A stretch of 64,000 bases of DNA from Bacteroidota bacterium (GTDB lineage: Bacteria > Bacteroidota > Bacteroidia > Bacteroidales > Lentimicrobiaceae). This document shows positions 4,023 to 63,437 of this stretch, in pieces. The stretch is taken from NCBI GenBank assembly GCA_009773515.1, contig WSXX01000016.1:1-64000 (forward strand). Direction: 5' to 3'. The position numbers and the translations under genes are program-made. Each line of letters opens with the position of its first letter. Position 1 is the stretch's first letter. The notes beneath the pieces were generated by a model. That model had not been told where the DNA came from. It saw only the letters and a list, made by a program, of their open reading frames with translations, and did not search any database.

Positions 4023-4049
4023 CAAAGTTATTAAAAATGAATGTTCAAA
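4023..4049 (-). promoter_or_regulatory. Putative promoter of the NusG-like gene
   Basis: Read on the minus strand: TTTG (4049-4046), 15 nt, TAACTTTG (4030-4023), an 8/8 match to the Bacteroidota -7 element TAnnTTTG. The spacing is shorter than the usual 19 nt. It would give a very short leader before the TTG start at 3998. Confidence 0.4.
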
Positions 4050-4234
4050 AGAGCATATGAGTTCTAACAATTATAAACAAAAAATCTGAAATCATACTGA
4101 CTGGCGCAGAACTGCAATTTTGCTTCACTTCAAAAAGGATTGAAGTTGCAATTTATTTAGTTTCTATTTTAAAAGGAAAGAAAAAATCCTGAGGGAAAAT
4201 AAGAATAGAATCTCGAGCAGCAGAAAATTCAGTG

Positions 4235-6266: not shown

Positions 6267-6268
6267 AT

Positions 6269-7510: not shown

Positions 7511-7527
7511 AGTGAATTATTTTATTA

Positions 7528-7557
7528 CAAACTTACAACATAATTTCATCCGACAAA
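7528..7557 (-). promoter_or_regulatory. Promoter of the permease-deacetylase operon
   Basis: Minus strand: TTTG (7557-7554), 18 nt, TAAGTTTG (7535-7528), matching both Bacteroidota promoter boxes. Initiation would fall only about 10 nt before the ATG at 7510. Confidence 0.6.
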
Positions 7558-7717
7558 CCTTAATCTTGAATGATTTATTCGATGTGTAGAACCAAAACAA
7601 ATTGAAGCAGCATATAAATCGGGTTGCATGAAAAACAGCCTGCCGGTGGGTTAACCACAACTTCAGAAAGAAAACAAATAAAATGGGATAATCAGATAAA
7701 CACAGTCCTGGAACCGG

Positions 7718-8368: not shown

Positions 8369-8408
8369 TTTAACTGCTTTCAAGTGTTAAAACACATGTA
8401 ATGAACTG

Positions 8409-8439
8409 CAAATATAGAGATTAGTTAACTCTGAACATA
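8409..8439 (-). promoter_or_regulatory. Putative promoter of upp
   Basis: Minus strand TATATTTG (8416-8409) is an 8/8 match to TAnnTTTG. Nineteen nt further upstream is TATG (8439-8436), a 3/4 match to the -33 box. Confidence 0.45.
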
Positions 8440-8517
8440 ATTATTGCAAGGAAATTAATTCCCAGATCAAAGACTTTGGTAACAGATTCCCTGAAATATG
8501 ATTATTCAGGTTATGTT

Positions 8518-14942: not shown

Positions 14943-15025
14943 TGATCATTTTTTTCAAAGTATTTTAATGAAATGCGCAACCACTCAGGTACAGAATGAC
15001 AGCTGACAACCCACTTTTAACAGAT

Positions 15026-18853: not shown

Positions 18854-18868
18854 TATTCTGTTTTTCTG

Positions 18869-21800: not shown

Positions 21801-22657
21801 GAATTCACACTTAAAAAATAGTAAGAGTAATCCGAATATAAATGTTTGCGGTGATTAAACAGTTCAGTTTGTAAATTATAATCCCATTTTTCTGTGCCCT
21901 GCGCATAAAATAAAATGTAATCTCCCTGATCAAAAGTGCCATCTCCTCCATCAATCACCATAACCGAAACTTCCGGTAAATCGTCATTTCGCGGACTGTC
22001 AGCCCTTTCGGGAAGCATACCACCACCATAACCATGAACTCTGATCAGTGAGGAACTCAGACCATTGACATTTATTCCCATTGCAGCCAGATCATTGTAG
22101 GTCAGCTGATGAATTCCGTTTTGTTTTACGGATAGCCTATACCAGTCGCCGGTTGCAAGCACTGAGGTATTGGAATAAGCCAGACTGTTTTTATTTACAG
22201 CTGATGGCTGTTCAGCTTCTTCAAACTCAAAACTGAAGGAAACCAGCTTCTCAATTGTACCGTTTTCAGGGTTTTTTCTAAGCGGAGTAAATAATATCTG
22301 ATGTGAATACAATTCATCCTTCCCAAAAGCAGAAAAGATAGGTGATATATTTTCTGACAGGCTATGATAATCTGCAAATAACAAAGCAGCCATTTCAATA
22401 CTATCGAGAGGTTTATATACCTCATCAGCGAGGATTACAGAAGCAACAGGCTGTTTATGATTGATATTTATCACCAAAACCGGTAAGCCAGTCTCTTCAG
22501 ATGAAAAGCAATTCTCACAGGAAAGCCAGGCTACAGAACTACCTGTTCCAACATACGGAGGCTGCCAGATTACAGCTTGCTGGGCCGGTAACCTGAAAGA
22601 AATCAAGAATACTTTGATAAAGAACAAAGCAATAATTACTGGTGTAAAACGCTGCAT
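18869..22657 (-). CDS. porU: PorU-like T9SS C25 peptidase, copy 1 (first gene of the array)
   Basis: A 1262-residue member, divergent from copies 2 and 3 over most of its length but with the same order of domains and an intact dyad: H774 (TGHGGE) and C808 (TATCEFSR). The C-terminal domain is of the same FlgD-like type (YPNPFSEMATLIFEHN). It is first in the unit, read from a promoter back-to-back with that of porP/sprF and near gldJ. In Flavobacterium johnsoniae porV, porU and gldJ are neighbours, so this copy is the best positional candidate for the ancestral porU. It could instead be the diverged one, with copies 2 and 3 duplicated from the ancestral gene. Confidence 0.85.
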   Translation of the reverse strand: MQRFTPVIIALFFIKVFLISFRLPAQQAVIWQPPYVGTGSSVAWLSCENCFSSEETGLPVLVININHKQPVASVILADEVYKPLDSIEMAALLFADYHSLSENISPIFSAFGKDELYSHQILFTPLRKNPENGTIEKLVSFSFEFEEAEQPSAVNKNSLAYSNTSVLATGDWYRLSVKQNGIHQLTYNDLAAMGINVNGLSSSLIRVHGYGGGMLPERADSPRNDDLPEVSVMVIDGGDGTFDQGDYILFYAQGTEKWDYNLQTELFNHRKHLYSDYSYYFLSVNSGTGSRMMEFPQPASPAGTVIVDYDWFYAYHPDEFSLVKSGKEWFGDLFDIVSSRDYAIPAYSTAAEKEVSIRLSVAARSTSSTSFTLAAAGKTFTSFVSPITTEANTAYARMNTETFKALTTSALSSVNLKYNKPSGSALGWLNFIEINTPAALNFSGGMMNFRKAGVEGVVEYRFTGSGQVSQLWDVSNPLQPGYINVVSTGSGFQFKALSDSRREYVLSDNASFLKPQFVEKLANQNLHGLGPHTMVIVAHPDFADQAVRLAEFHTSHNDFSVLVVQPQTIYNEFSSGAQDISAIRDFMRMLWKKASSGNQPRYLLLFGDASYDYKDYLTGNSNFVPTFQSVESLHPVNSYATDDFFASIDDAEGGLSSDVVDIGVGRLVVQTAEQAKNAVDKIIHYATAADKVHGEWRNIIAFVADDEDGNEHMRQADQLATMIDTTYRNYNTEKIFLDAYPQISTPGGQRAPDANLAINQRMEKGALIVNYTGHGGETGWAHERVLEVNDVLSWTNFDRMPVFMTATCEFSRYDDPLRVSAGEMVFLNPRGGGVALFTTARPTFGTPNFTLARNFYNIAFKPTDNGMPYLGDLIRISKRLSGPDNNGKKFVLLGDPALKMAYPEYKIYTTSINGNAVSFLSDTLRAMEEVTITGYVGDEDGIPLTDFSGVITPTVFDKETLIETLGSDGASRMTFSVRKNIIYKGKALVENGYFSISFIVPRDIAYQFGKGKISYYATDGVRDAAGYHDRFVIGGISNTAITDQSGPEIRLFINDTLFRSGGFTDENPVLIAYVNDESGVNTIGSSIGHDIVAVLNLKTDAPFILNDYYEADLNTYKSGRITYPFKRLEPGKHTVRVKVWDVNNNSSEASIDFFVASSSELTLGSFDIYPNPFSEMATLIFEHNKAGENLDLNLSIFSLAGIQVASLNRTIFADGYRSVAFEWDGRGANGSQISAGLYIGRLRVRDALGNESFSSVKISIVR

Positions 22658-41101: not shown

Positions 41102-42184
41102 TTATTTTTGATCTTCAACTTCCTTCTTCATCTCCTGAAAAACAGGACTTTTTCCAATTCCTTTCTGACCAATATCGGGCGACATCATTCCGGGAAACTC
41201 ATTTCCTTCAATTAATACAGGCCCTTGCGGAGTAATGGCGACATCCCAGCCAATAACTTTAACCTGAGGGATTAACTGACTGGCAGCAATTACCAGTTCA
41301 GTAGTTTCCTTAAAAAAAGGAAGTTCATAACCTTCAAACCTGATTTTTGATCCCGGATGTTCAAGATAAGTGCGGGCGCGACCATTGGTGAAATCAGAAA
41401 CAGCTTCACGCCGCAGCTTACCTGTACAGAAATTTATTCCGACATATGCTCCACCTTTTGAGACATTATCGAGATATGCATCAGAAAAACCAAGCCTTAG
41501 CATTCCTGACATTATGCGGCTTACATTCTCTTTATTGGTGAAAGTTTCAATCCTCATGGTATTTACACAATGAGGATTTAAACGGCTAAGGGCTTCATGC
41601 TGAATAACTTCTTCCTGAAATATAAATGAAGAATCCAGTACAATTTTAAAGATTTTATTTAATTCTTCACGGTTATTCTGAAGAGAAGAATATGATACTT
41701 TGTATATGTGCTTTCCACCTCCTGTACCAGCTTCTTTTTTGATAAAAATATTTTCGGAGTGTTTTGAACCGGCTGAAATTTCCTTCACAAAATCAAGAAA
41801 TTCGTCAGGTGTATTGATCTGTATGAAATCTCCTCCTGCAAAAAACAAGGAATTTACATTGTGAGCATAGGTATTGGTAACCGGAAGATTATGTTTTCTA
41901 AAAAACAACTCGAACAAGTATTTATCATCGAGAATTGTGTTATAACGGGGATCGTTGAGGGTCCAGCATTTATCGCGCAATTTATGAGTCATCACGTAAT
42001 CATTAAAATTTGAGACCCCTTTGCGGTAAAGAAACTTTGAAAAGTACTGCTCAGCAATATCAGGCCTGGTCAGAATAAATCTGCCATATTCTGATATGAT
42101 CCTGGGAATACTTTTACGATAAGGGTCATGAAGTATAATTGTAAAAAAATCCATAACCTTGGCGGGAAGTTTTCGTTTACTCAT
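41102..42184 (-). CDS. Sugar-transfer-associated ATP-grasp protein, copy A
   Basis: A 360-residue protein of the ATP-grasp superfamily, of the type named sugar-transfer-associated. ATP-grasp enzymes join a carboxylate to an amine, hydroxyl or thiol through an acyl phosphate. Visible segments are FIKKEAGTGGGKHIYK (phosphate-binding loop), LNPHCVNTMRIETF and KVIGWDVAITPQGPVLIEGN, with the Asp/Glu/Asn metal ligands. It is one of three tandem paralogues, closest by eye to copy C. The substrate is unknown. It begins 139 nt after copy B. Confidence 0.8.
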   Translation of the reverse strand: MSKRKLPAKVMDFFTIILHDPYRKSIPRIISEYGRFILTRPDIAEQYFSKFLYRKGVSNFNDYVMTHKLRDKCWTLNDPRYNTILDDKYLFELFFRKHNLPVTNTYAHNVNSLFFAGGDFIQINTPDEFLDFVKEISAGSKHSENIFIKKEAGTGGGKHIYKVSYSSLQNNREELNKIFKIVLDSSFIFQEEVIQHEALSRLNPHCVNTMRIETFTNKENVSRIMSGMLRLGFSDAYLDNVSKGGAYVGINFCTGKLRREAVSDFTNGRARTYLEHPGSKIRFEGYELPFFKETTELVIAASQLIPQVKVIGWDVAITPQGPVLIEGNEFPGMMSPDIGQKGIGKSPVFQEMKKEVEDQK

Positions 42185-43639: not shown

Positions 43640-44722
43640 TCATTGGCATGATAAAGCTTCTTTATACATTTCCATAAAAACAGGATTTTTGCGCAATCCG
43701 TTTTGTGTGATATCTTCAAAAACCAGGCTTGGGAGTTCATTTCCTTCCACCATGACTGGCCCATTCGGTGTTAATGCAACATCCCATCCTACAATTTTTA
43801 CCTGAGGAAATAACGCTGCTGCGCCAATAACCAGATCAACAGTTTCTGCAAAGAAAGGAATCTTAAACCCATCAAATTCCATATTATTTACCGGGTGGCG
43901 AAAATAGGTTTTTGCCCTTCCGTTGGTAAAGTCAGAAAACGCTTCTTTTTTTAAAACCCCATTTTCAAAATCAATTCCCACATAAACTCCACCACTGGAA
44001 GTATTGTCAACATAACTATCATTAAGACCAATTCTGAAAACGCCCCCCATAATTCTGCTTCCGTTGGCTTGATTGGTATAGGATACAATACGCATTGTAT
44101 TCACACAGTGAGGGTTCAGCCTGTTGATCTCTTCATGCTGAACAATTGCTTCCTGAAATATATACCCATCAGCAATTACATGATGATATAGCTTCTCCAC
44201 CAGAAGTTTGTCTGTCTGTAAATCCTTCAGGCTTATCCTGAAAATGTTTTTTCCGCCACCGGAGCCTGCAGTTTTCTTTACAAAAATCGTCTTATCATTA
44301 CTCGCATAAGCAAAAACCCGCATTAGAAACTTACGGAATTCACCTTCGTTATTGATCTGTTCAAAACTACCCTCAATAAAAAAAAGTGAGTTGATATTAT
44401 ATGCAAAACTATTGACGACACTAAGATTATGATTTCTTAAAAAGATTTCGAACAGGTACTTATTATCAAAAATAGAATTATAATGAGGGTCGTTCATTTT
44501 CCAGAAAATATTCTGAAGTTTATGGGTTACCATATAATCATCATAATTATCAATACCTTTTCGGTAAAGGAACTTTGCAAAATACTGTTCAGCAACAGCT
44601 GGTTTTGTCAGGCTATGTTTTAAAAAATCCCAAAGAATAACAGGTATGCTTTTTCTCTGGGGATCTTTGAGTACAATTGCAAAAAAATCTTTAGCCTTTG
44701 CAGTTATTCTTCTTTTACTCAT
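43640..44722 (-). CDS. Sugar-transfer-associated ATP-grasp protein, copy C
   Basis: A 360-residue paralogue with the same N terminus as copy A (MSKRRITAKAKDFF versus MSKRKLPAKVMDFF). Motifs: FVKKTAGSGGGKNIFR, LNPHCVNTMRIVSY, GGVYVGIDFENG and KIVGWDVALTPNGPVMVEGN. It starts 20 nt after the end of the pruA copy upstream, so it probably shares that transcript. This is a physical link between a glutamate-producing dehydrogenase and the ligase array, not proof of a functional one. Confidence 0.8.
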   Translation of the reverse strand: MSKRRITAKAKDFFAIVLKDPQRKSIPVILWDFLKHSLTKPAVAEQYFAKFLYRKGIDNYDDYMVTHKLQNIFWKMNDPHYNSIFDNKYLFEIFLRNHNLSVVNSFAYNINSLFFIEGSFEQINNEGEFRKFLMRVFAYASNDKTIFVKKTAGSGGGKNIFRISLKDLQTDKLLVEKLYHHVIADGYIFQEAIVQHEEINRLNPHCVNTMRIVSYTNQANGSRIMGGVFRIGLNDSYVDNTSSGGVYVGIDFENGVLKKEAFSDFTNGRAKTYFRHPVNNMEFDGFKIPFFAETVDLVIGAAALFPQVKIVGWDVALTPNGPVMVEGNELPSLVFEDITQNGLRKNPVFMEMYKEALSCQ

Positions 44723-52358: not shown

Positions 52359-52550
52359 AACCAATGAATTCTGATTCGATTTGCATCTCATTTCAATTGA
52401 GAGTAATAATATCGGATCATTTTACGACGATTACTTTTTAGAGTGCAGCCCAAAGGTTGCACTTTAAATTTTTATCGTCGGATTATTTGTGAACATTGTG
52501 AATTAAAAAATGTTAAACTTGCGGCAAAATCAAAAAGCCAAATTTTCGTT

Positions 52551-53915
52551 ATGCAGAGCCCTTTAAACTACATTAAAGATTACATCAGCAAGGGGCACGA
52601 ACGAAGCCGAAACATCAAAATAAACATTCTGCTTTCCTTTCTCATCAAGAGCGGCAGTATTGTTATAACATTTTTAATTGTTCCCCTCACACTTGGTTAT
52701 CTTGGCGCGAGAGATTACGGCATATGGCTGACGCTCAGTTCAGTCATCTCGTGGTTTGGTTTTTTCGACATAGGACTTGGAAATGGTTTAAGAAACCGGT
52801 TTGCTGAAGCGCTGGCAAAGGGGGATAAAGAACTGGCGAGAATTTACGTAAGCACCACCTATTTCGGATTAACCGGTATTTTTGGCATACTTTGGATATT
52901 GTTCTTCGGTGCAAGCTTTTTCCTGAACTGGAACACAATTTTCAATATCCCGGTGGGAGAAACAGGCAATCTCCAGACCCTTGTGGTTTATGTATTTTCA
53001 CTGTTTGTGCTCCGATTTGTATTGAAGCTGATATCGATCATCATCACAGCTGATCAAAAGCCCGCCATCAGTAACACTTTCGATCCATTGTCAAATGTCA
53101 TTTCGCTGATAATTATCTACATTCTGACATTAACAACCAGCGGCTCACTGATGTACCTTGCAATGGCAGTTACGTTTTCACCGGTTCTTGTTCTTCTGAT
53201 CGCAACCATTTACTTTTTCAAAAATAACTACAAAGAATACAGGCCTTCGCTGAAATACTTCAGAATGAATCAATTGAAGGATCTAACTGGGCTGGGATTT
53301 CAGTTCTTTATCATTCAGATAGCTGTGTTGGTTATCTTTTCGACCGACAACATGATTATAACACAGGTTCTGGGTCCTGAACATGTTACACCTTACAATA
53401 TCGCATTCAAGTATTTCCATTCGGTTTCAATGGCTTTTGCCATCATCATGAATCCGCTTTGGTCGGCATACACACAAGCATACACAATTAACGATATCTC
53501 TTGGATCAGGCATATAACTACCAGATTGACAAGGCTTTGGTTTCTGATTGTCGTTCTTGTGGGGTTTATGGTGCTGGTTTCAGGGCCATTTTATAAGTTC
53601 TGGATTGGCGACAAGGTAGAAATTCCACTGCTGATTACGATATTGATGGGAGTTTTCATTCTTATAAGTACATGGAATAACATTTATGTTTATTTCATAA
53701 ATGGCGCAGGAAAGATCCGGTTTCAACTATACACATCAATTATTGCTGCGTTGGCAAATATTCCGTTATCGGTTTATTTTGCCAGAAACCTCGAAATGGG
53801 AGCTTCAGGTGTAATACTTGCCACTTGTATCTGCTTGTTGCCAGGCACATTACTTGCACCCTATCAATACAAAAAGATTCTCAACAAAACTGCAACCGGC
53901 ATTTGGGATAAATAA
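52551..53915 (+). CDS. Polysaccharide/O-antigen flippase (Wzx-like), copy 1
   Basis: A 454-residue integral membrane protein of the MOP superfamily (RfbX/Wzx-like), with about 12-14 membrane segments. It should flip lipid-linked saccharide units across the inner membrane. Typical N-terminal features are present: IPLVLTLGYLGARDYGIWLTLSSVISWFGFFDIGLGNGLRNRFAEA-like architecture. It is a clear paralogue of the next gene along the whole length. The frame runs back to 52443 without a good start; ATG 52551 makes the length equal to the neighbour (454 and 453). A weak -7 match lies at 52514-52521. Confidence 0.87.
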   Translation: MQSPLNYIKDYISKGHERSRNIKINILLSFLIKSGSIVITFLIVPLTLGYLGARDYGIWLTLSSVISWFGFFDIGLGNGLRNRFAEALAKGDKELARIYVSTTYFGLTGIFGILWILFFGASFFLNWNTIFNIPVGETGNLQTLVVYVFSLFVLRFVLKLISIIITADQKPAISNTFDPLSNVISLIIIYILTLTTSGSLMYLAMAVTFSPVLVLLIATIYFFKNNYKEYRPSLKYFRMNQLKDLTGLGFQFFIIQIAVLVIFSTDNMIITQVLGPEHVTPYNIAFKYFHSVSMAFAIIMNPLWSAYTQAYTINDISWIRHITTRLTRLWFLIVVLVGFMVLVSGPFYKFWIGDKVEIPLLITILMGVFILISTWNNIYVYFINGAGKIRFQLYTSIIAALANIPLSVYFARNLEMGASGVILATCICLLPGTLLAPYQYKKILNKTATGIWDK

Positions 53916-53963: not shown

Positions 53964-55325
53964 ATGAATTTAAAAGACCGGCTTCTGAAACTGCTTAACA
54001 CCGGAAACGTCAGAAGCGTCAAAGCCAAAAAAAATATACTTGCATCCTTTGGTATAAAGGGTGTAAGTATATTAATTGGGTTTATTTTCGTGCCACTGCT
54101 TATTAATTACCTCGGAACCTTTGAATACGGAATATGGATAACACTCGGATCAATTGTAGGATGGATTAATTATTTTGACATTGGATTGGGAAATGGATTA
54201 AGAAATAAATTTGCAGAAGCCCTTGCCAAAGGTGATAATAAGCTAGCCAGAATCTATGTGAGCACCACATATGCCGCGCTAAGTATGATATTCGGTGCAT
54301 TTTTTGTGATTTTTCTGGTTGCCAATCCATTTCTCAACTGGGCTGTAATTCTGAATGGGCCGGAAGCAATGCGTTCAGAATTGAGCATTCTTGTAATGAT
54401 AACCGTTGGATTCTTTTTGCTTAGATTTATATTCAGAATGGTTGCAATCATTATCATTGCTGATCAAAGGCCGGCATTAAGCAATACATTCGATCCGATT
54501 TCAAATGTTGTTGCGCTTTCGGCGATTTTGATTCTCATGAAAACCACTGATCCATCACTTATCAACCTTGGTATTGTGCTGGGGGGAGCGCCGGTTTTGG
54601 TTTTGTTTATTGCTTCATTTTACTTTTTCAGCAAAGATTATAAAGAATTCAAGCCTATTTTAAGCCTGGTTAATTTCAAATATTTCAAAGATCTTGCCGG
54701 ACTCGGTATTCAGTTCTTTATAATTCAAATTACTGTAGTGGTCATTATGTCAACCAACAATCTGATCATTACTCAGGTGGTTGGCCCCGAGGCAGTGACC
54801 TCGTACAATGTTGCCTATAAATACTTTGGCCTGATTACAATGCTTTTTGTAATAATCACCAATACTTATTGGTCAGCATTTACCGAAGCCTATGTGAAAA
54901 AAGATTTTCTGTGGATAAAGAATGTAATGCGCGGTATGATAAAAATATGGATAGGCATTATTCTGATCATTTCTGTTATGCTGGCAGTTTCTGCGCCGTT
55001 CTACTCAATCTGGATTGGGGATAAAGTGCAGGTTCCATTTATGCTTTCAGCATTTACTGCGCTGTTTGTAGTTGTGTATTTATGGTACAGCATCTTTATT
55101 TATTTCATCAACGGCACCGGCAAAATCAAGCTTCAGCTTTATACTGCGGTAACGGTGGCTATTTTCAATATTCCGCTTTCCATTTTTCTGGCTAAAAACA
55201 TGGGCATGGGAGCAGCCGGGGTAATACTTGGCTCTTGTATTACCTATTTGCCCGGTGCAATACTGGGGCCAATTCAATATTATAAGCTGGTTAATGGCAA
55301 AGCGACAGGTATTTGGGGAAAATGA
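53964..55325 (+). CDS. Polysaccharide/O-antigen flippase (Wzx-like), copy 2
   Basis: A 453-residue paralogue of the upstream flippase, 48 nt away. The shared signatures DIGLGNGLRN, FAEALAKGDN, ARIYVSTTY and NTFDPISNV lie at the same positions, and the C termini share GIW followed by a short tail. Having two Wzx-like proteins in tandem suggests either two lipid-linked glycans or a heteromeric or redundant pair. It is followed by a DegT-type aminotransferase. Confidence 0.87.
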   Translation: MNLKDRLLKLLNTGNVRSVKAKKNILASFGIKGVSILIGFIFVPLLINYLGTFEYGIWITLGSIVGWINYFDIGLGNGLRNKFAEALAKGDNKLARIYVSTTYAALSMIFGAFFVIFLVANPFLNWAVILNGPEAMRSELSILVMITVGFFLLRFIFRMVAIIIIADQRPALSNTFDPISNVVALSAILILMKTTDPSLINLGIVLGGAPVLVLFIASFYFFSKDYKEFKPILSLVNFKYFKDLAGLGIQFFIIQITVVVIMSTNNLIITQVVGPEAVTSYNVAYKYFGLITMLFVIITNTYWSAFTEAYVKKDFLWIKNVMRGMIKIWIGIILIISVMLAVSAPFYSIWIGDKVQVPFMLSAFTALFVVVYLWYSIFIYFINGTGKIKLQLYTAVTVAIFNIPLSIFLAKNMGMGAAGVILGSCITYLPGAILGPIQYYKLVNGKATGIWGK

Positions 55326-55404: not shown

Positions 55405-56505
55405 ATGTATAAATATCCTGTTTATCAGCCATCCCTGAAGGGAAACGAAAGAAAATATGTAAACGATTGTATCGACACCAACTGGTTAACCTGGCAGGGA
55501 AAGTATGTTAAAGAATTTGAAACAGAGTTCGCCCGATATATAAACGTCGGATATGCTTCAACCACCTGTAATGCAACTGTGGCCCTGCATCTGGCAATGG
55601 TTGCATTGGGCATTGGCCCCGATGATGAAGTAATTGTGCCAACCCTGACCTATGTTGCTTCGGTAAATTCAATTGTTTATTGCGGCGCTAAACCTGTATT
55701 TGTTGATTCATTGCCCGAAACATGGCAAATGGATCCAAAAGATGTTGAACGGAAAATTACTCCGAAAACCAAAGCCATAATGGCTGTGCACGTTTACGGG
55801 CATCCCTGTGAAATGGATGAACTGCAATCCATCGCGAAAAACCACAACCTGTTTCTGATTGAGGATGCTGCCGAAGCTTTTGGATCAAAATACAAAGGCA
55901 AATTTACCGGCACTTTCGGCGATATCAGCATTTTCAGCTTTTTTGGCAATAAAACCATTACCACAGGCGAAGGTGGGATGATAGTGACCAACAATACCAC
56001 CATTATGGACAGGGTGAAACTATACAAGGGACAAGGTCTTGCTCAATACAGAGAGTATTGGCATGAAGTGGTTGGGTACAATTATCGTATGACGAATGTT
56101 GCTGCCGCCATTGGGCTTGCTCAGCTTGAACGTGCAGATGAACTGATTGCAAAAAAGATACTTCTTGCAAAATGGTACGACGAACTTCTTGAAGATCTTC
56201 CGGTTACATCGCATAATCCTTTTGGCGATGTTGTTCATACTTACTGGATGTATTCCATACTTGCCCAAAATGCCGATGAAAGGATTTTGCTGAGAGAAAA
56301 ACTCAAAGAGAATGGTATTGAGACACGCCCTATTTTTCATCCGGTTCATACCATGCCCATGTACACAGGCAACTTTCATCCGTTTAAAGTTGCAGAAGAC
56401 CTTGGCTGGAGAGGCATAAATCTCCCAAGTTATCCCGATTTGTCGCGTGAAAATGTAGAAGAGATCTGTTCGGTTATCCGATCATTTTATAAACCAATCT
56501 CCTGA
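55405..56505 (+). CDS. DegT/DnrJ/EryC1/StrS-family sugar aminotransferase
   Basis: A 366-residue PLP-dependent aminotransferase acting on nucleotide-linked keto-sugars, resembling perosamine-synthetase-type enzymes. The PLP lysine is K183 (FFGNKTITTGEGG) and the cofactor-binding Asp is D154 (LIEDAAEAFG). Family signatures YVASVNSIVYCGAKPVFVD and GYNYRMTNVAAAIGLAQL are present. It would provide an amino sugar for the surface glycan handled by the flippases upstream. It ends 2 nt before the next gene. Confidence 0.9.
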   Translation: MYKYPVYQPSLKGNERKYVNDCIDTNWLTWQGKYVKEFETEFARYINVGYASTTCNATVALHLAMVALGIGPDDEVIVPTLTYVASVNSIVYCGAKPVFVDSLPETWQMDPKDVERKITPKTKAIMAVHVYGHPCEMDELQSIAKNHNLFLIEDAAEAFGSKYKGKFTGTFGDISIFSFFGNKTITTGEGGMIVTNNTTIMDRVKLYKGQGLAQYREYWHEVVGYNYRMTNVAAAIGLAQLERADELIAKKILLAKWYDELLEDLPVTSHNPFGDVVHTYWMYSILAQNADERILLREKLKENGIETRPIFHPVHTMPMYTGNFHPFKVAEDLGWRGINLPSYPDLSRENVEEICSVIRSFYKPIS

Positions 56506-56507: not shown

Positions 56508-57554
56508 ATGAAGTTTGATGTTTATGAAGCCTGGCAACCCGAATGGAAATCTGCAATTGATAGGATTGATTCAAAACTCGCCGATGTTTATTTCCTGCCT
56601 GAATGGTACATAACCTGGGAAAATTACGAACATTCTGTAGCAAAATGCATTGTTGCAGAAGAGGATGACTATCTTTTTGTTTACCCTTTTCTGATGAGGT
56701 CAATCGAAGGTTTTGACATTGCAACCGAATGCTTTGATATACAAAGTGCGTATGGTTACGGTGGTGTTCTTACCAATAGCCTGAGTGTGCCGCAACATTT
56801 AACTGAGAAGTTCAACCACAAAGTAACCGATTGGCTCACAGAGAATAACGTAATTGCTGAGTTCGTGAGGGAACATCCGCTGCTGGATCATTGCCGGCGG
56901 GATGCGCAGTATGTGCTGGCCAGAAAGAATATTTACATCGAAGCATCACGCAACTACAGAATTCCTGAACTGAAAAATCATCAGAATGTATCTAAGTTCC
57001 GTCGCGATGCAAAATTAAAGGTGGTGATTGATGACCGTCTGGATGGGATGGATGAGTTTGTGAGACTTTATCATTTGAATGCCAACCGAATCGGGATGTC
57101 AAAATATTACTTCTTTTCAGAAGAATATTTTAACCTGATCAAAAACCTCTTGAAAGATCATGCCAGGCTCATCAACATTTATTATGAAAATAAACTGACC
57201 CACAGCTTAATCTATTTATTTTACGGTAACAAAGCATCGCTTCACCTTGCAGGTGCTGACCACTCACTATTCAAATTCAACCTGAGTGCGGTTTCATTCT
57301 TCGAATCTGTATTGTACTCGGCTGAACTTGGAATGGAAACAGTAAATATCGGAGGTGGTTTGACTGCTGATGAGCAAGATAGTCTCTATCGCTTTAAAAA
57401 GAATTTCAGCAGCAATATAAAGGATGTTTTTATTGGGAAGAAGGTCATTAATCAACTGGTTTATGACTCTCTGGTCAGGCAATGGGAAGAGAAGTATCCT
57501 CACCTGAAAGACAGGTACAGAAATTTCTTCCTGAAATACCGGCAGACGGAATAG
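56508..57554 (+). CDS. GNAT/FemAB-like acyltransferase
   Basis: A 348-residue protein of the FemAB-like GNAT group (acetyltransferase 6 type). FemAB proteins attach amino acids to cell-wall precursors; in glycan clusters the same fold acylates amino sugars. Here the preceding gene is an amino-sugar aminotransferase only 2 nt away, so N-acylation of that amino sugar is a reasonable guess. Typical segments: the DVYFLPEWYITWE start, YRIPELKNHQNVSKFRRDAKL mid-part and LGMETVNIGGG near the C terminus. The actual acyl donor is unknown. Confidence 0.75.
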   Translation: MKFDVYEAWQPEWKSAIDRIDSKLADVYFLPEWYITWENYEHSVAKCIVAEEDDYLFVYPFLMRSIEGFDIATECFDIQSAYGYGGVLTNSLSVPQHLTEKFNHKVTDWLTENNVIAEFVREHPLLDHCRRDAQYVLARKNIYIEASRNYRIPELKNHQNVSKFRRDAKLKVVIDDRLDGMDEFVRLYHLNANRIGMSKYYFFSEEYFNLIKNLLKDHARLINIYYENKLTHSLIYLFYGNKASLHLAGADHSLFKFNLSAVSFFESVLYSAELGMETVNIGGGLTADEQDSLYRFKKNFSSNIKDVFIGKKVINQLVYDSLVRQWEEKYPHLKDRYRNFFLKYRQTE

Positions 57555-57605: not shown

Positions 57606-58574
57606 CTAGTTTTTAGCCAAACCTTCAAGCACTTTGTCATTTTTCATATCCATAACGAGCTTTTTTGAGAAAAGTTCCGCCCCTCTTATGTTCATGTGTG
57701 TAGAGTTGTAGAAGTAGTACTTGTTGAATGACATCGAATCGTTCGAATAGTCGTAATACGGAATATTGTACTTTTGACCAAAGGATGCAAAAACGCCCAT
57801 TATTTCGGGTCTGTTTTCAACAAACAACTGACCATCAATATATTCAGGCGGGGCAACAAAAATTATCTTAATATTTTTCTTTTGACATTCGGCCAGAAAT
57901 TCATCGAACATAACAACAGATAGTGAATCCAGTTCCATTGTAAAACGGCCACCCATCTCCTCAACTGCATTGTCAAAATCAGAATTCCATTCGAGGTTTT
58001 TGCCCTGATATCCTTTTATGCGATCGGATTTCTGCCGATCGGGAGCCATTGCTATTTTTACAGCAGAAATTGAAGTTTTCCATTTTCCAAGATACCTGAT
58101 CAAAGGAACTTTTGCATCGTATTTTCCATAACCTTCATATGATGAAATTGCTTTTGCAACCAAAGTGTCGCTGGTCATATAAGGCAAAAACTGGTCGGAA
58201 TTATACAAGTCAGGCCTTTTGCCCAGCGTCATCAGGTCAACAGCATAAATGATTACTTCGGGGGCTTCATTGTATCTGAGCAAAATTTCATGACGAAGTT
58301 TCTGAAGCCAGAAATTATGACCGTTTAACCCGATATTATAGACTGAAAGGTTAAGACTATCCAAAAGAATTTTTGGATCGAAATGAACCCAGGCCCTTGA
58401 ACCACCGTAAATCAGCAGGTCCTCATTTATTTTTCCATTGTAAATGTCATTCCATACTCCAAACTCATCAGCTTTTGATTTCTTTAAAGCATTGGTAAGG
58501 AAAATATCAGCCAGATAACCTAAAATGAGCAGAGGCAAAATAAAAATCAAGACTGTTATTAAAAATTTTTTCAT
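57606..58574 (-). CDS. SGNH/DltD-like membrane-anchored protein
   Basis: A 322-residue protein with one N-terminal membrane anchor (about residues 5-28) and an extracytoplasmic SGNH-hydrolase-like domain. The catalytic-type motifs are GGSRA (Ser59) and NSTHMNIRGAELF near the C terminus, with the His of the usual DxxH replaced in context by NSTH. Such proteins partner MBOAT acyltransferases in DltB-DltD and AlgI-AlgX type systems, completing acyl transfer to a glycan. It follows the MBOAT gene by 17 nt and closes the operon. Confidence 0.78.
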   Translation of the reverse strand: MKKFLITVLIFILPLLILGYLADIFLTNALKKSKADEFGVWNDIYNGKINEDLLIYGGSRAWVHFDPKILLDSLNLSVYNIGLNGHNFWLQKLRHEILLRYNEAPEVIIYAVDLMTLGKRPDLYNSDQFLPYMTSDTLVAKAISSYEGYGKYDAKVPLIRYLGKWKTSISAVKIAMAPDRQKSDRIKGYQGKNLEWNSDFDNAVEEMGGRFTMELDSLSVVMFDEFLAECQKKNIKIIFVAPPEYIDGQLFVENRPEIMGVFASFGQKYNIPYYDYSNDSMSFNKYYFYNSTHMNIRGAELFSKKLVMDMKNDKVLEGLAKN

Positions 58575-58591
58575 TGCAAATGGTTTTTACA

Positions 58592-60043
58592 TCAGAACTG
58601 AAAGTAGATAAACTCTTTACCCGTCGCTGAAAAGAAGAAAACAATGATAATCATAAGATAATAAAAGCTCCACCTCACGGTTTTCGAAAGCGATGTGCCA
58701 ATTCCTGCAATTGCATATTCATGGCTTTTCCCAAACCATTCAATCACCATCATAACCACAATGAATATCATTGTAATCAGCACTCCCATCCTTCCTTCAA
58801 ACTGCGGCATTGAAAAGAGAGATAGAGAGAAAATATTTTTGTAGAATTCAAATGCATTTGAAATGTTATCAGATCTGAAAATCACAAAACCGATCATTGC
58901 AAGCAGAAAAACACCAACCATATTCCTGAACTCAACAAATGAAGGAATCAATTTCCCCTTGAGAGATTTCTTTTTCTTGAAAATTTTACCTTGAAGTATC
59001 AGCGGAATATAATAGCTGCCATGCAGTAACCCAAACAATACAAAAGTCCAGTTGGCACCGTGCCATATGCCAATGATAAAGAAATTTATCATAATGGCAA
59101 TTATCAGCCCTCTGTTTCCATAGTCTCTGAAATGAATTGACAAAGGTGTAAAAACGTATTCTGTCATCCACGAAGTGAGTGAAATATGCCACCGTTGCCA
59201 GAACTCTGCAATATTTTGCGAAAAGAAAGGAAAGTCGAAATTCTTTGTAATGTTAAACCCGATGAGTCTGGCAAATCCGATTGCCATATCAGAGTACCCT
59301 GAGAAGTCGGCATAGATCTGAATGGTATAAAGAAACAAACCCAGCACCAATGAGCTGGCAGGCATTGTGTCGAAATTATCGAATACCTGATTGGTGTAAA
59401 TTGCACAATTGTCAGCAACCACAATCTTTTTAAACAAGCCCCACAATATCTGCCTGAATCCATCAACTGCCTGATCATATTTGAATTCCCGCCGTTTTTC
59501 GAGTTGAGGAATCAACAAAGTTCCCCGGTCAATAGGACCTGAAATCAAACTCGGGAAAAATGAAACATAAGAGAAAAACACAATCCAGTCGGTAGTCGGT
59601 TCAATTTTCCCTTTGTTTACATCAAGCAGGTAACTCATAGTCCGGAAGGTGTAGAAACTGATTCCGAGCGGGAGTATAATTTTTAATGTGTGATAATCAA
59701 GGTTAATGTTGATGGTCTGAAATGCATCAACGAATGATGTTATAAAGAAATTGAAATATTTAAAGAACACCAGCCCCCCGATCCCCTGAATCAGTCCGAT
59801 GTAGAGGAGTAATCGTCTTTTGGCATCGCTGCCTGCTTTTGGAATGTATATGCCCAGTAAATAATTAAGGACTGAAACGCCTATCAATAAAGATAAAAAG
59901 CGCCAGTCCCACCAGGCATAAAAGAAATAACTTCCGGTTAAAATAAGGAGATTCTGAGCTTTAAGATTTCGCTGAAATACCAGCCAGTACAAAACAAAAA
60001 AGACCAGAAAAAAAACAGTGAATGGCAGTGAATTAAAAACCAT
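58592..60043 (-). CDS. MBOAT-family membrane acyltransferase (AlgI/DltB-like)
   Basis: A 483-residue integral membrane O-acyltransferase with about 10-11 membrane segments. The two conserved histidines are H286 (WQRWHISL) and H328 (IGIWHGAN), the classical MBOAT pair. It should take an acyl group from a cytoplasmic donor to an extracytoplasmic acceptor. In this operon a dedicated acyl carrier protein and an FkbH-type loading enzyme are encoded just upstream, so the donor may be a small acyl-ACP rather than acetyl-CoA. It lies 53 nt after the VOC gene and 17 nt before the SGNH gene. Confidence 0.9.
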   Translation of the reverse strand: MVFNSLPFTVFFLVFFVLYWLVFQRNLKAQNLLILTGSYFFYAWWDWRFLSLLIGVSVLNYLLGIYIPKAGSDAKRRLLLYIGLIQGIGGLVFFKYFNFFITSFVDAFQTININLDYHTLKIILPLGISFYTFRTMSYLLDVNKGKIEPTTDWIVFFSYVSFFPSLISGPIDRGTLLIPQLEKRREFKYDQAVDGFRQILWGLFKKIVVADNCAIYTNQVFDNFDTMPASSLVLGLFLYTIQIYADFSGYSDMAIGFARLIGFNITKNFDFPFFSQNIAEFWQRWHISLTSWMTEYVFTPLSIHFRDYGNRGLIIAIMINFFIIGIWHGANWTFVLFGLLHGSYYIPLILQGKIFKKKKSLKGKLIPSFVEFRNMVGVFLLAMIGFVIFRSDNISNAFEFYKNIFSLSLFSMPQFEGRMGVLITMIFIVVMMVIEWFGKSHEYAIAGIGTSLSKTVRWSFYYLMIIIVFFFSATGKEFIYFQF

Positions 60044-60096
60044 GCGCTCAATTTATTAAAGGAATATTTATACCGAAAGAATTACAGATTTTTCCA

Positions 60097-60498
60097 TCAG
60101 GCTTCAATCAACTCAAAAAGGTGAGCATCGGGTGAAAAGAGGAAGATGCATCTTTTTCCTTCAAAAGCTTCTGAGAAAAAATACTCCATTGCTTTGAAGT
60201 CCTGCATTTCCAATTCTGCAACTGCTTCAGTGATGTTATCAACTTTATACCCGATGTGATAATAAGTAACTCTTTTTTTGAGCAGATTAAAAACCTTTGA
60301 TTCTTCAGAATATGGCTGAACCAGCTCAATAAAACTTTCATCGGCAATCTGAATAAAACAGACATCTACCTTTTGGGTTTCTATTCTGAATATCTGAGAG
60401 GCGCAGTTTTGCCCAAAAATGTTTTTGTAATTCGAAACAGCACTTTGCATATCGTCAACCAGCGTTCCGACATGATGAAAATTAAGTTTGGTCTTCAT
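60097..60498 (-). CDS. VOC (glyoxalase/methylmalonyl-CoA epimerase-like) protein
   Basis: A 133-residue single-chain VOC-fold protein. The paired beta-alpha-beta-beta-beta modules are visible, with N-terminal FHHVGTLVDDM (H8/H9) and C-terminal SPDAHLFELIEA. The second-module histidine (YHIGYKV) and terminal Glu fit metal-binding positions. It resembles methylmalonyl-CoA epimerases, so it may act on a thioester, for example racemising an acyl group on the carrier protein encoded 53 nt upstream. That function is inferred from context. Confidence 0.78.
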   Translation of the reverse strand: MKTKLNFHHVGTLVDDMQSAVSNYKNIFGQNCASQIFRIETQKVDVCFIQIADESFIELVQPYSEESKVFNLLKKRVTYYHIGYKVDNITEAVAELEMQDFKAMEYFFSEAFEGKRCIFLFSPDAHLFELIEA

Positions 60499-60551
60499 TA
60501 TTGAACTTTCATTGGCAATGAAATAAACCCTGGATTTTTTGTTGACAAAGA

Positions 60552-60791
60552 TTATTTTTTGCTGATAATACCTTCAACCAGCTCTCCGATATTTTTCCAG
60601 CTCTGAATTTCTTTTGCTGTAAAACGGAGTTTAAAATGCTTTTCTATTGAAACAACAAGGTGAATATGAGTGAGAGAATCCCATCCTTCCACATCGTTGG
60701 CAGTTGTTTCATAGGCCAGTGTTACCTCCTGATCGTCAAGGGTATCTCTGAAAATTTCCTGAAGTTGACTCAAAATCTCTGCTTTGTCCAT
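60552..60791 (-). CDS. Acyl carrier protein
   Basis: A 79-residue acyl carrier protein of the non-fatty-acid type. The phosphopantetheine-accepting Ser39 lies in the DSLTH motif (EGWDSLTHIHLVVSIEKHF). The frame is open further, but ATG 60791 (MDKAEILSQL) places it just after the methyltransferase stop (1-nt gap). It would carry the acyl group made by the FkbH-like protein and pass it to the MBOAT enzyme. Confidence 0.9.
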   Translation of the reverse strand: MDKAEILSQLQEIFRDTLDDQEVTLAYETTANDVEGWDSLTHIHLVVSIEKHFKLRFTAKEIQSWKNIGELVEGIISKK

Positions 60792-60792
60792 T

Positions 60793-61701
60793 TTATTGTT
60801 GTTTTTGTTTGATAAAAGCTGCAAACATTACCGGAACTTTAAATTTATCAGCGTATTGCTGACTGACATGTTCCGAAATAACCACCTTCTCTTCGATGAT
60901 CTCGAGACCGGCCTGATTGATCAGATCCCGTATTTCCTGAACCTCATTAAACAGGTAAATATGATCAATCATAGGTGCATTTACCGGGGCTGAAATATAG
61001 GAAATTCCATCGTCACTTAAGAGATCTTTTAATTTTTTTAATAAAACCAAAGGATCTTCAAGATGTTCGAGCACTTCGCCAATGGTAATGAAACCAAAAG
61101 TTGAGTTGCTGGCATACTCTAACACGTTTTTTGTAATAAAGTTTACCTTCGGGTCATTAATAATTCCCTTGCAGATGCCAATGGAATAATCACTGATATC
61201 AACAACTTCAAACTTTACATTTTCAGGCAGCAGTTTAATTGCTGTATAACAATACAATCCGTGACCGCAACCTATTTCCAGATAACTTTCAGCAGATTTT
61301 GCATAGCCTGCAAGACTGTCAGCAAAAAATGAATAACGTTCATATTGATCGAACCAGAGAAACTGGGCAAGGGCAAGTCCGTGCATGTGGTAACACATCA
61401 TGTCGGGATTATTGTAAATGCATTTCTCGACTTCCATTAATGACACCGACGAATACTTCCCTTGTCTCAGGAAATTCATTCTTTCGATTGCCATATCGTC
61501 AAGCATTCTGAGATAGCAATCAATGCTAAAATCAAGGTCAGTATTTTCCCTGAGAAGATGCTTTTCATATTGGCTGTAGAAATCATTTGCCCTGCTGACA
61601 TACAGCTCGTTCAGGTAGTTTGTGTTTAGTCGTAATTTTTTTGCATGTGCAGGCCTCTTTGATTCAAGTTTGAGTAAAATCTCTTCAAGATAATTGTTCA
61701 T
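60793..61701 (-). CDS. SAM-dependent class I methyltransferase
   Basis: A 302-residue methyltransferase with an N-terminal helical extension (1-135) before the Rossmann core. Motif I is YLEIGCGHGLY (about 140-150), followed by KFEVVDISDYSIG (acidic loop) and FITIGEVLEHLEDP. The start ATG overlaps the FkbH-like stop (TAATG), and the ACP start lies 1 nt after its stop, so the three are translationally coupled. A plausible substrate is the ACP-bound acyl group; O-methylation by analogy with methoxymalonyl-ACP pathways is an inference. Confidence 0.85.
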   Translation of the reverse strand: MNNYLEEILLKLESKRPAHAKKLRLNTNYLNELYVSRANDFYSQYEKHLLRENTDLDFSIDCYLRMLDDMAIERMNFLRQGKYSSVSLMEVEKCIYNNPDMMCYHMHGLALAQFLWFDQYERYSFFADSLAGYAKSAESYLEIGCGHGLYCYTAIKLLPENVKFEVVDISDYSIGICKGIINDPKVNFITKNVLEYASNSTFGFITIGEVLEHLEDPLVLLKKLKDLLSDDGISYISAPVNAPMIDHIYLFNEVQEIRDLINQAGLEIIEEKVVISEHVSQQYADKFKVPVMFAAFIKQKQQ

Positions 61702-63437
61702 TACTGAAGGTTAACAGGTTTCGCAGTGATAAATGCGGTTCTTTCCTCATAACTCTTGAGATCGAGGAACCAGAATCCGTTGTCAAAAGTAAAACCGAGA
61801 TTTTTGTAGTGATCTTCAACCATGCCGTTCTTCGCAGTTGGAATAAATTCACCTTTCAATCTTTTAAAACCATGCCTGGTTCCTGACTGAACAATCGTAT
61901 TTGTGACAAAGTTTTCCATGCCACGTTTCAAAACCCGGCAACTCATAAACCAGGTATCAATAAATAGTGTTTCTGAATCTTCTTTTTCAAGGATGATGAC
62001 ACAAATAAGTCCGTTATCTCCAAATTTATCCTCAAGGGTGAATGAAAATGAAAGATGTTTTTCAGATGTTGAAATTGTTTCAATATCACTTTCGGTATAA
62101 CGCATAGTTCTGAGGTTAAACTGGTTTGATCGCTGAGAAAGCTGAGCAACCCTTGGTGTATTGAATTTATTGAAAGGTTCGATTACCGAAACCATATCAA
62201 GGCTTTTCAGGAAGTCATCTTCGTTGACAAATGACTTCTGCATGATGCTGCGTTTGGCCTCAACCTGATATTGTTTGGTTCGTTCAGCATCTTCGTTTGA
62301 GTAAGAAACTGTCTCAAATAAATTAAGTGAATAAAGGTATTCGAGATACTCAGCAGGATCTTCGGGTAATTCAGGCACAATAATTCCGGGAATATTTTCG
62401 CGGACAATATTTCTTTCAAAGGGATTGTCATCGAGAAACACCATAGAATCGAAACCAATATTCAGAATACTCTGAATCAGCCTGATATTGTCGGCTTTAT
62501 TGTTCCAGTTTGCAACAAATACAGCAATATCGTCTAGCCTTAATACCATGTCAGGATGCTTTTCAAAAGGTTCTTTTGCAACTGATTCGGTATTCTTGCT
62601 GCATACTGCGAGGATAATTCCACGGTTTTTCAGCTTTTTTGCCCAATACTGGAACTCAGTAAAAGCTTTGCCTATTCCCAGACTACCAATCTGAATATTT
62701 TCAAGACCATCATCGCCAATAACCCCACCCCAGGTAGTGTTGTCGAGATCAAGTATCAAACATTTATTTACGCGGCCATTCATGGCAGATATCAGGTCGA
62801 GTGTGCGTGATGCAACATCAGGCATTATTTCAATGCTCACAACCATCTCAGAATTTATGTAAATAGATGGTTGAAAAAATGTTTTGCGCCCGTGTAAATT
62901 CTGAATTGATGAAAGGTCACAAATATAAAACCCGGCGTGACCAGATGCATACTGCATCAATTGATAGTTAAGTTTTCTGAGTTGAAATATAAAAGAAGAT
63001 TCAAATTTGCCAGAATAATTCCCGAAAACGGTATCATCAATCTCGGTATAATTGAAGCAAATAATTTTGGCAGAACAATTTAAACCGATTGAACTGTTGA
63101 TGCCATCTATCAGTTCCATTTGCGAATCGGCAAGGGTGGAATAAGCTTCAGGTTTTAGCTTGTTGTACCGGCCAAGAAGTTTATGTGATGAGTGAAATAT
63201 GACAACTATTTCAGGGTTAAACTCATACAATTCTGAAGTCGGATCAAAGACCTGACGTTCAATCTGATTAAAATCAGCTTCCCATATGTTAAGGTCAAGA
63301 CCATAGTCATATCCTGTTCCCCTCAGCGCCTGCGATAAGAATTGTGTTGCACTATCGCCCAAAACGGCAACTCTGATGCTCTTCAGCTTCGAAAAATCGT
63401 TTTTTAGATTTTTGACCAACTGTGTAAATGTTTTCAT
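61701..63437 (-). CDS. FkbH-like HAD-IIIC protein
   Basis: A 578-residue FkbH-domain protein. FkbH enzymes dephosphorylate 1,3-bisphosphoglycerate and load the glyceryl group onto a carrier protein. Domains: an N-terminal SGNH-like part with GDS at 27-29, the HAD domain with nucleophile D230 and D232 (DLDNTTWGG), and a C-terminal GNAT-like part (about 430-570, YKNLGF near the end). Residues for HAD motifs 2-4 (VCSKN; FLDDNPFE) are present. It is the first gene of an operon with methyltransferase, ACP, VOC, MBOAT and SGNH genes. Loading glycerate is the best-supported activity. Confidence 0.88.
   Translation of the reverse strand: MKTFTQLVKNLKNDFSKLKSIRVAVLGDSATQFLSQALRGTGYDYGLDLNIWEADFNQIERQVFDPTSELYEFNPEIVVIFHSSHKLLGRYNKLKPEAYSTLADSQMELIDGINSSIGLNCSAKIICFNYTEIDDTVFGNYSGKFESSFIFQLRKLNYQLMQYASGHAGFYICDLSSIQNLHGRKTFFQPSIYINSEMVVSIEIMPDVASRTLDLISAMNGRVNKCLILDLDNTTWGGVIGDDGLENIQIGSLGIGKAFTEFQYWAKKLKNRGIILAVCSKNTESVAKEPFEKHPDMVLRLDDIAVFVANWNNKADNIRLIQSILNIGFDSMVFLDDNPFERNIVRENIPGIIVPELPEDPAEYLEYLYSLNLFETVSYSNEDAERTKQYQVEAKRSIMQKSFVNEDDFLKSLDMVSVIEPFNKFNTPRVAQLSQRSNQFNLRTMRYTESDIETISTSEKHLSFSFTLEDKFGDNGLICVIILEKEDSETLFIDTWFMSCRVLKRGMENFVTNTIVQSGTRHGFKRLKGEFIPTAKNGMVEDHYKNLGFTFDNGFWFLDLKSYEERTAFITAKPVNLQ

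Follow-up and report, generated by a model that had tools for sequence, protein, structure and literature searches.

We analysed a window of 64,000 nucleotides (positions 1 to 64,000 of contig WSXX01000016.1, assembly GCA_009773515.1) from a Bacteroidota bacterium of the Lentimicrobiaceae. Six minus-strand genes at 57606-63437 encode, in transcription order, an FkbH protein, a methyltransferase, an acyl carrier protein (ACP), a VOC protein, an MBOAT acyltransferase and an SGNH-type protein. We consider it distinctly probable that these genes specify a carrier-fed MBOAT-SGNH acylation system that works by the logic of the Dlt pathway, with FkbH replacing DltA and the motif of DltX fused to the MBOAT, and that adds a glyceroyl ester; the glyceroyl would here probably be O-methylated and/or epimerised. 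At the level of sequence, this reading is supported by the parts, their residues, their recurrent linkage, the fused shuttle motif and a docking stretch unlike that of other MBOATs.

The six-gene row

The first gene (61701..63437, 578 aa) encodes a predicted HAD-IIIC glyceryl transferase/phosphatase of the FkbH family, the second (60793..61701, 302 aa) a class I S-adenosylmethionine (SAM) methyltransferase with an N-terminal part of about 125 residues, and the third (60552..60791) an ACP with its phosphopantetheine serine, Ser39, in GWDSL. These are followed by a VOC protein (60097..60498, 133 aa), whose nearest structures are glyoxalase-I-like proteins and methylmalonyl-coenzyme A (CoA) epimerase, the MBOAT acyltransferase (58592..60043, 483 aa) with H286 and H328, and an SGNH-type envelope protein (57606..58574, 322 aa) with G57, S59, N80, H293 and an N-terminal hydrophobic stretch that was judged by eye. 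The FkbH and methyltransferase genes share one base (TAATG), and the ATG of the ACP gene lies one base past the methyltransferase stop codon; both couplings, and the common direction of the six genes, had been described in an earlier note on this DNA and are present in the sequence. From this ATG the ACP has 79 residues, and the listed TTG start at 60824 would overlap the methyltransferase gene. The gaps after the ACP, VOC and MBOAT genes are 53, 53 and 17 nt.

Family scans (Pfam, NCBIfam) named five of the six genes in agreement with the earlier assignments, and the active-site residues put forward with them (FkbH D230/D232, ACP Ser39, MBOAT H286/H328 and SGNH Ser59) are in place and invariant among aligned homologues. 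The association of the genes exceeds chance: other Bacteroidota have these parts together as well, and alphaproteobacterial plasmids have some of them. A search for near DNA copies of the locus on plasmids gave no match. A defence system was considered and set aside: a PADLOC scan of the six proteins matched the methyltransferase to mad2 only. Below, L-numbers denote fetched homologous loci and G000 the window's own genome.

FkbH and the carrier protein

FkbH matches FkbH_N (4.7e-74) and TIGR01686, the latter at 296.6 bits and thus above the curated cut-off of 146.65; its sole PDB match is 3slr (BF1531). D230, D232 and C500 are each kept in 91/91 aligned homologues, and we take C500 to be the acyl-carrying cysteine. 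FkbH has one match in the 5.03 Mb window genome and none in 14 control genomes. The ACP belongs to the PP-binding family and keeps S39 in 62/62 aligned homologues; one other match was found in the window genome (contig C65, 23% identical). FkbH would load Ser39 of the ACP with a glyceryl unit, which by analogy would come from 1,3-bisphosphoglycerate and pass through Cys500. An FkbH relative with 35% identity over 96% of the query was also seen at 71476-73146 of a phage record (MT835480.1, "Bacteriophage sp.", human faecal samples).

MBOAT and SGNH-type protein

The MBOAT (family match 3.3e-16) keeps H286 and H328 in 73/73 aligned homologues and ends in FIYFQF (58595..58612, minus strand), the final six codons ahead of the stop. 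This end, which includes Tyr480, fits FXYXXF, the shuttle motif of PatA and DltX, and F478 and Y480 are kept in 71/71 rows with a letter there. PatA acylates the tyrosine of its C-terminal FXYXXF, and a peptide with such an acyl-tyrosine can serve the SGNH protein PatB as acyl donor; the Dlt pathway carries the motif on DltX, and the cited passages describe MBOAT/SGNH pathways other than Dlt as being without a similar carrier protein (PMC12148441). We found an FxYxx[FY] terminus in 28 of 29 same-strand FkbH-linked MBOATs, the lone miss (L025) being cut by a contig end. The window MBOAT probably carries the acyl group on its own Tyr480: it would dock the loaded ACP on a cytoplasmic helix and pass the acyl group through its tunnel to this residue. 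With a carrier and a loader in the same row as a fused-motif MBOAT, the locus appears to join the Dlt and acyl-CoA-fed designs.

No Pfam or NCBIfam family matches the SGNH-type protein itself. A profile built from 13 homologous rows matches GDSL acylhydrolases (6e-7) and DltD in the PDB set, mainly over the C-terminal part of the protein, and G57, S59 and H293 are kept in 18/18 aligned homologues. This protein would accept the acyl group by Ser59 and esterify a surface glycan made by the surrounding cluster. Among relatives, a strict SGNH motif stands directly after MBOAT in 15/42, a pattern that seems too narrow for divergent proteins; SGNH linkage in relatives is taken from profile matches and not from this motif search.

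The predicted docking stretch of the MBOAT

Residues 298-316 of the MBOAT (59096..59152, minus strand) align with the DltC-docking helix HC of DltB and have P-x5-R (P300/R306) in place of PLGG. The DltB residues reported to bind DltC are Met302, Val305, Ile306, Met309, Lys312 and Arg317, on or next to the horizontal helix HC (PMC11035591). Residues 302, 305, 306 and 317 align with 299, 302, 303 and 308 of the window MBOAT, and 309 and 312 fall in an insertion. Comparing 29 linked with 27 unlinked MBOATs over 483 columns, we found that the 10 columns which best tell the two sets apart include 7 from residues 298-316, and the best 20 include 10. The linked set comprised same-strand MBOATs of at least 440 aa; opposite-strand ones (eight in the first tree), L026, L037 and the frameshifted L062 were excluded, L067-L069 were left out, and L017, from the same genome as L100, was dropped from trees and MBOAT comparisons and kept in the count of 52 loci given below. 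Unlinked MBOATs show PLGGS or near it, and most linked ones P-x5-R. The second, non-dedicated MBOATs of L023 and L065, set aside as checks, show ordinary PLGG.

Of 92 MBOATs without FkbH nearby (the earlier unlinked ones plus 60 further regions, namely 58 class-sample MBOATs without FkbH and two from the window genome), 4 have P-x5-R. In three of these 4 an ACP lies no farther than 3 kb off and the fetched stretch also encodes an AMP-binding ligase; the fourth, L170, starts 398 bases into its contig, and its tree sister is the FkbH-linked L103. Near the other 88, which do not have P-x5-R, a profile from FkbH-linked ACPs found an ACP in 0/88, where 28 rows (27 MBOATs and a fragment) had flanks of 1.5 kb only, so that a farther ACP would escape. 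Hence MBOATs whose docking stretch points to a carrier have, in place of a missing FkbH, another loader close by, an AMP ligase. Of the three loci with an ACP, L174 has an AMP ligase, an ACP, an MBOAT and an SGNH-profile match, its carrier having no Pfam match and being found by the ACP profile only; L186 has an AMP ligase, a GNAT protein, an ACP, an MBOAT and an SGNH-profile match. The third, L167 (G000:C61:48500-62000), with an asparagine-synthase-like gene at 2066-4039, an ACP at 4054-4302, an MBOAT at 5257-6693 and an AMP ligase at 7685-9145, is a probable second carrier-fed MBOAT locus in the window's own genome.

Recurrence and apparent exchange of tailoring genes

An FkbH scan of 84,980 species genomes gave 52 loci; it used exact peptides of the window FkbH and favours close relatives. 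With 5 loci from relatives and 26 from an evenly drawn class sample, 83 were obtained, three weak class-sample FkbH matches not being counted among them. Of the 52 loci, 49 have an ACP no more than 3 kb from FkbH, and 28 have an MBOAT no more than 5 kb away, in 23 cases on the FkbH strand; among the 24 that show no MBOAT, 15 break off inside that distance. Over all loci, MBOAT stands within 5 kb of FkbH in 38/83. Co-occurrence of FkbH, ACP and MBOAT genes in Bacteroidota, for which the earlier note had proposed a search, is seen. FkbH has a match in 29 of 247 class genomes, the window's own among them.

The whole order from FkbH to SGNH recurs in L062 and L039, and in L099 and L020 with MBOAT-SGNH in front. 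The methyltransferase gene lies between FkbH and ACP in these four and in the window, and the one-base overlap with FkbH is shared by the window and L020. The suggestion that no pathway with this exact gene set has been described held for the open-access literature, in which we found none; the set itself is not unique, since it recurs in these four loci.

Other loci carry other tailoring genes. None is present in L015, L021 and L028; VOC without methyltransferase occurs in L012 and L013 (the latter with a short-chain dehydrogenase/reductase (SDR) upstream), and methyltransferase without VOC in L022 and L063. A MaoC dehydratase with an SDR occurs in L009-L011, L017, L018, L065, L097, L098 and L103. 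L008 has β-ketoacyl-ACP synthase III (KAS III) and no MBOAT. A tree of 83 FkbH rows places 36 of the 38 MBOAT-linked ones in a single clade of 53, whose other members are 9 rows without MBOAT and a further 8 at contig ends. Within this clade, methyltransferase/VOC (16 rows) and MaoC with SDR (12 rows) need 9 changes, a count that does not include a shuffle control. Because of these changes, FkbH and ACP seem to be a stable core on which tailoring cassettes are exchanged. MaoC with SDR would suit a conversion of glyceryl-ACP to pyruvoyl-ACP and lactoyl-ACP, as judged from the chemistry; the bryostatin loading module is a precedent for glyceryl-ACP to lactoyl-ACP chemistry.

Methyltransferase, VOC protein and the likely product

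The methyltransferase matches Methyltransf_23. Its GxGHG and the His, Asn, Asp and Tyr residues of its N-terminal and catalytic parts are kept in 12/12 aligned rows, with H19, Y63, Y83, H213, N241, D246 and H247 invariant. Its PDB matches are confined to the SAM part (profile positions 123-285 at widest), and the substrate is not readable from them. The VOC protein matches Glyoxalase_4 and scores 60.4 bits against methylmalonyl-CoA epimerase (TIGR03081), under the equivalog cut-off of 114.95. H9, E58 and H81 are kept in 25/25 rows and E129 in 24/24 rows with a letter; by alignment, we take these four to be metal ligands of the VOC centre. From its likeness to methylmalonyl-CoA epimerase, the VOC protein is likeliest a C2 epimerase. 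The unit on the ACP would thus be tailored by these two proteins, O-methylation and C2 epimerisation being the likeliest reactions.

For suomilide, loading of glycerate by FkbH and then O-methylation have been proposed (an FkbH-O-methyltransferase loading module, PMC13122637). Flagellin of Campylobacter jejuni 11168 bears dimethylglyceric acid derivatives of pseudaminic acid (PMC4975691), and the C. jejuni flagellar glycan locus contains an fkbH-domain gene, cj1302, together with cj1301, annotated as an epimerase (PMC7099621). Because of these analogies, a methylglyceroyl ester is the likeliest product; this is the weakest step of the whole reading. The route predicted in the earlier note, from glyceryl loading by FkbH through modification and MBOAT passage to transfer by the SGNH protein, is partly supported; it stands as the best-supported reading and is refined by the Tyr480 shuttle and the Dlt logic; its donor, product, stereochemistry and acceptor, and the roles of the methyltransferase and VOC protein, are what we infer.

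Genomic surroundings

Four plus-strand genes converge on the row: two Wzx-type flippases (52443..53915 and 53964..55325), a DegT aminotransferase (55405..56505) that is LegC-like and under the equivalog cut-off, and a FemAB/GNAT-like protein (56508..57554), a possible alternative acyl transferase. They had been described before as flippases, an amino-sugar aminotransferase and a GNAT protein, and all were found, the last as a weak FemAB-like match just below the Acetyltransf_6 cut-off. Past the window end lie glycosyltransferases, a polysaccharide-deacetylase-like protein, PGA_cap and Alg14-like genes. Because flippases, DegT, glycosyltransferases and further glycan genes flank it, the cassette is placed by its predicted neighbours inside a surface-glycan cluster. 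All ten genes recur in unchanged order and arrangement in L062, a locus from another genome of this genus. The L062 MBOAT is split into two overlapping frames at 7017-8463 (an assembly error or a broken gene).

Elsewhere in the window, three tandem minus-strand genes at 11109-22657 encode proteins of 1262-1277 aa, each with Peptidase_C25, presumably of the type IX secretion sortase kind; two of them were compared and are 73% identical. Two proteins with a sugar-transfer-associated ATP-grasp domain are encoded at 41102-42184 and 43640-44722.

Loci outside Bacteroidota

The same parts are also grouped on alphaproteobacterial plasmids, without an annotated glycosyltransferase in these stretches. 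Rhodobacteraceae SC52 has ACP, FkbH, MBOAT, a 358-aa protein with a weak SGNH-profile match (14 bits) and VOC. Sinorhizobium meliloti pSymA has VOC, MBOAT, a 409-aa protein (SGNH profile 19 bits; labelled TonB-dependent receptor in its record), ACP and FkbH, and 40 Sinorhizobium records have an FkbH match. Tistrella has FkbH, methyltransferase, ACP and MBOAT adjoining on mixed strands, and the next protein has no SGNH-profile match. The MBOATs of SC52, S. meliloti and Tistrella end in FIYFNF, FLYQGF and FIYAGF. A Paroceanicella plasmid (L190) has ACP, FkbH, methyltransferase and VOC, and no MBOAT in the stretch seen. After these genes, L190 encodes at 11475-12794 a 439-aa protein, followed by mprF; the HAGH stretch of this protein recalls, as we take it, LpxL-type acyl-ACP acyltransferases, and the protein is possibly another way of offloading the acyl-ACP.

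Weighing the readings

Several observations weigh against carrier-fed glyceroyl transfer in the window or limit the evidence for it. The FxYxx[FY] terminus also occurs in 27/27 unlinked MBOATs; because these end alike, the motif is read as a mark of the MBOAT-SGNH mechanism, and neither of the donor nor of a carrier. MBOAT has a match in 200/247 class genomes, so co-presence alone says little, and of the 26 class loci, 17 have an ACP at 3 kb or less from FkbH and only 6 an MBOAT at 5 kb or less (of the remaining 20, 9 break off inside that distance). The docking stretch is not uniform: of 39 FkbH-linked MBOATs scored, 24 have P-x5-R, 10 neither pattern and 5 the ordinary one, the two second copies included, and 3 of the 29 same-strand linked MBOATs (L024, L099 and L100) keep PLGG, L099 with the whole gene set. 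The exact P-x5-R pattern was written after further segments had been seen, R306 already being the top column beforehand. The ACP profile came from FkbH-linked ACPs, and other carriers near unlinked MBOATs could escape it. On the plasmids, the stretch could be placed in 2 of 3 MBOATs and shows neither PLGG nor P-x5-R, and the SGNH-like partners match weakly. For the epimerase role, two glyoxalase-labelled structures match the VOC protein better than methylmalonyl-CoA epimerase does.

The trees also narrow the argument from the docking stretch. A first tree had suggested a near-clean split of linked and unlinked MBOATs (4 changes vs 23.3 shuffled); after wider sampling this was dropped in favour of parallel change. 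In the wider tree, made with the docking stretch masked, with eight long-branch or contig-cut loci omitted and with unlinked rows thinned, carrier linkage changes 11 times, and the tidy split was partly a matter of sampling. Starred branches gave 5 independent pairs; in an average of 3.9 of them the change in the stretch goes along with that in linkage and in 0 it runs counter to it, which is too few pairs for significance (median sign test p 0.125).

The locus could also serve two separate decorations, with FkbH, ACP, methyltransferase and VOC making an acyl-ACP that the FemAB/GNAT-like protein (56508-57554) uses on a DegT-made amine, and MBOAT-SGNH acting as an acetyl-CoA O-acetyltransferase. 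The FemAB-like gene adjoins DegT with synteny kept in L062, and FemAB-like genes lie within 5 kb of FkbH on its strand in L008, L024 and L066, in the last directly after ACP with no MBOAT seen on a contig that ends about 0.8 kb on. Tannerella forsythia is known to have nonulosonic acids with N-glyceroyl groups (PMC6120980), and the VOC-FkbH-ACP loci L043, L045, L046 and L052 have DegT and no MBOAT within 5 kb. However, in the window MBOAT stands in the same gene row as ACP, its docking stretch differs from that of unlinked MBOATs at carrier-binding positions, and MBOAT is near FkbH in 38/83 loci as against 3/83 for same-strand FemAB-like genes (the convergent copies of the window and L062 apart). 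We regard two decorations as unlikely.

It is far less probable still that FkbH and ACP make a small-molecule starter or extender unit, tetronate- or methoxymalonyl-like, and that the locus is a metabolite cluster. Tetronate and methoxymalonyl-ACP pathways are the best-known settings of FkbH, and KAS III stands beside FkbH-ACP in 7/52 loci; however, no ketosynthase, polyketide synthase or nonribosomal peptide synthetase was found among the ten window genes scanned, and flippases and glycosyltransferases flank the locus. In the methoxymalonyl-ACP pathway (FkbG-K) two dehydrogenases oxidise glyceryl-ACP, and both are absent among the same ten genes. A polyketide or methoxymalonyl cluster was therefore set aside.

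A more serious possibility, which we hold to be less probable than a tailored glyceroyl, leaves the system as it is and changes the unit: the methyltransferase would act on the glycan, or the VOC protein would not be an epimerase, and the ester would be plain glyceroyl or something else. The unreadable methyltransferase substrate and the VOC score far under the epimerase cut-off are consistent with this, and the two genes are separable (VOC without methyltransferase in L012, the reverse in L022 and L063). Against it, the methyltransferase gene lies between FkbH and ACP in five loci, with the one-base FkbH overlap in the window and L020, and the VOC protein keeps its four putative metal ligands. 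Carrier-fed acylation with a glyceroyl unit remains the reading that we prefer for the window.

Significance

MBOAT-SGNH acylation has been divided into one carrier-fed pathway (Dlt) and acyl-CoA-fed ones (PMC12148441). We tentatively propose, at a confidence somewhat short of even, that a whole class of MBOAT-SGNH systems in Gram-negatives acylates the envelope from a carrier, and that both the loaders (FkbH or AMP ligase) and the tailoring cassettes of this class are exchangeable. No cassette would give glyceroyl, methyltransferase with VOC an O-methylated and/or epimerised glyceroyl, and MaoC with SDR lactoyl via pyruvoyl-ACP; the MBOAT docking helix would predict carrier feeding, and an MBOAT-less VOC-FkbH-ACP branch would supply the N-glyceroyl of nonulosonic acids. 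Should carrier feeding, combined with a fused shuttle and a C3 donor from glycolysis, prove widespread, hydroxyacyl groups that are scarce as CoA esters could be present on envelope polymers, and tailoring genes would allow the group to be predicted.

A recurrent VOC-FkbH unit, mostly with ACP and often beside DegT, was seen in L042-L050 and L052 (Bacteroidales, Spirochaetia/Treponema and Tannerella sp.), with no MBOAT within 5 kb and several contigs ending nearby. NCBIfam scans of ten proteins each in L052 and L045 gave polysaccharide genes with LegC- or DesI-like aminotransferases, and a complete nonulosonic acid gene set was not seen among these proteins. The unit is a candidate source of N-glyceroyl groups. 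The glyceroyl genes of T. forsythia are reported as missing ('remains elusive', PMC6120980; 'a major challenge', PMC6388019), and FkbH-ACP loci offer candidates for them; the link to the MBOAT-less loci is a lead.

Comparison with known systems

In the open-access literature, FkbH and MBOAT were found together only in aeruginosin-type peptide work, and nothing was found that joins FkbH with glyceric acid in a polysaccharide or with O-antigen. With FkbH natural-product loading (suomilide), the window shares FkbH, a carrier and the proposed O-methylation (PMC13122637); unlike those systems, it has no assembly line, and offloading is predicted to be by MBOAT-SGNH. With C. jejuni flagellin glycans the likeness, drawn from published descriptions, lies in their dimethylglyceric acid derivatives, an fkbH-domain gene and a gene annotated as an epimerase; in the cited passages no MBOAT-SGNH link is mentioned and cj1302 is not connected with the dimethylglyceric group (PMC4975691, PMC7099621). 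The MBOAT-SGNH O-acetylation systems (PatA/PatB, AlgI type) share the C-terminal FXYXXF, the catalytic histidine and the SGNH partner; they use an acyl-CoA donor without a carrier, whereas the window row has a dedicated ACP and a loader, and its docking stretch differs.

The closest likeness is to the Dlt pathway of teichoic acid D-alanylation (DltA-DltB-DltC-DltD-DltX). On the reading given here, both have a loader that charges a dedicated carrier (here the ACP with Ser39, in the gene row), a DltB-related MBOAT, a tyrosine shuttle motif and, for the final transfer, an SGNH protein acting on a polymer of the envelope. The window MBOAT scores 167.4 bits against TIGR04091 (equivalog cut-off 375) and matches DltB 6bug in the PDB at 9e-27, and is thus homologous to DltB and not an equivalog; the SGNH-type protein matches DltD 6o93 at 4e-4 over part of its length, GDSL acylhydrolases matching better, and shares its fold class. 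However, the window has FkbH where Dlt has the AMP-forming ligase DltA, and a scan of ten window genes found no AMP-binding ligase. The MBOAT itself bears the shuttle motif, which in Dlt sits on DltX, and a separate microprotein with FXYXXF was not found among the listed open reading frames, all of at least 60 aa. The window also adds methyltransferase and VOC genes and lies in a surface-glycan cluster. The system works like Dlt and yet, lacking the ligase and having its shuttle motif on the MBOAT itself, is not a member of it. Of the two options that the earlier note had left, a new system or a variant of known loci, we judge it to be a new variant of MBOAT-SGNH envelope acylation.

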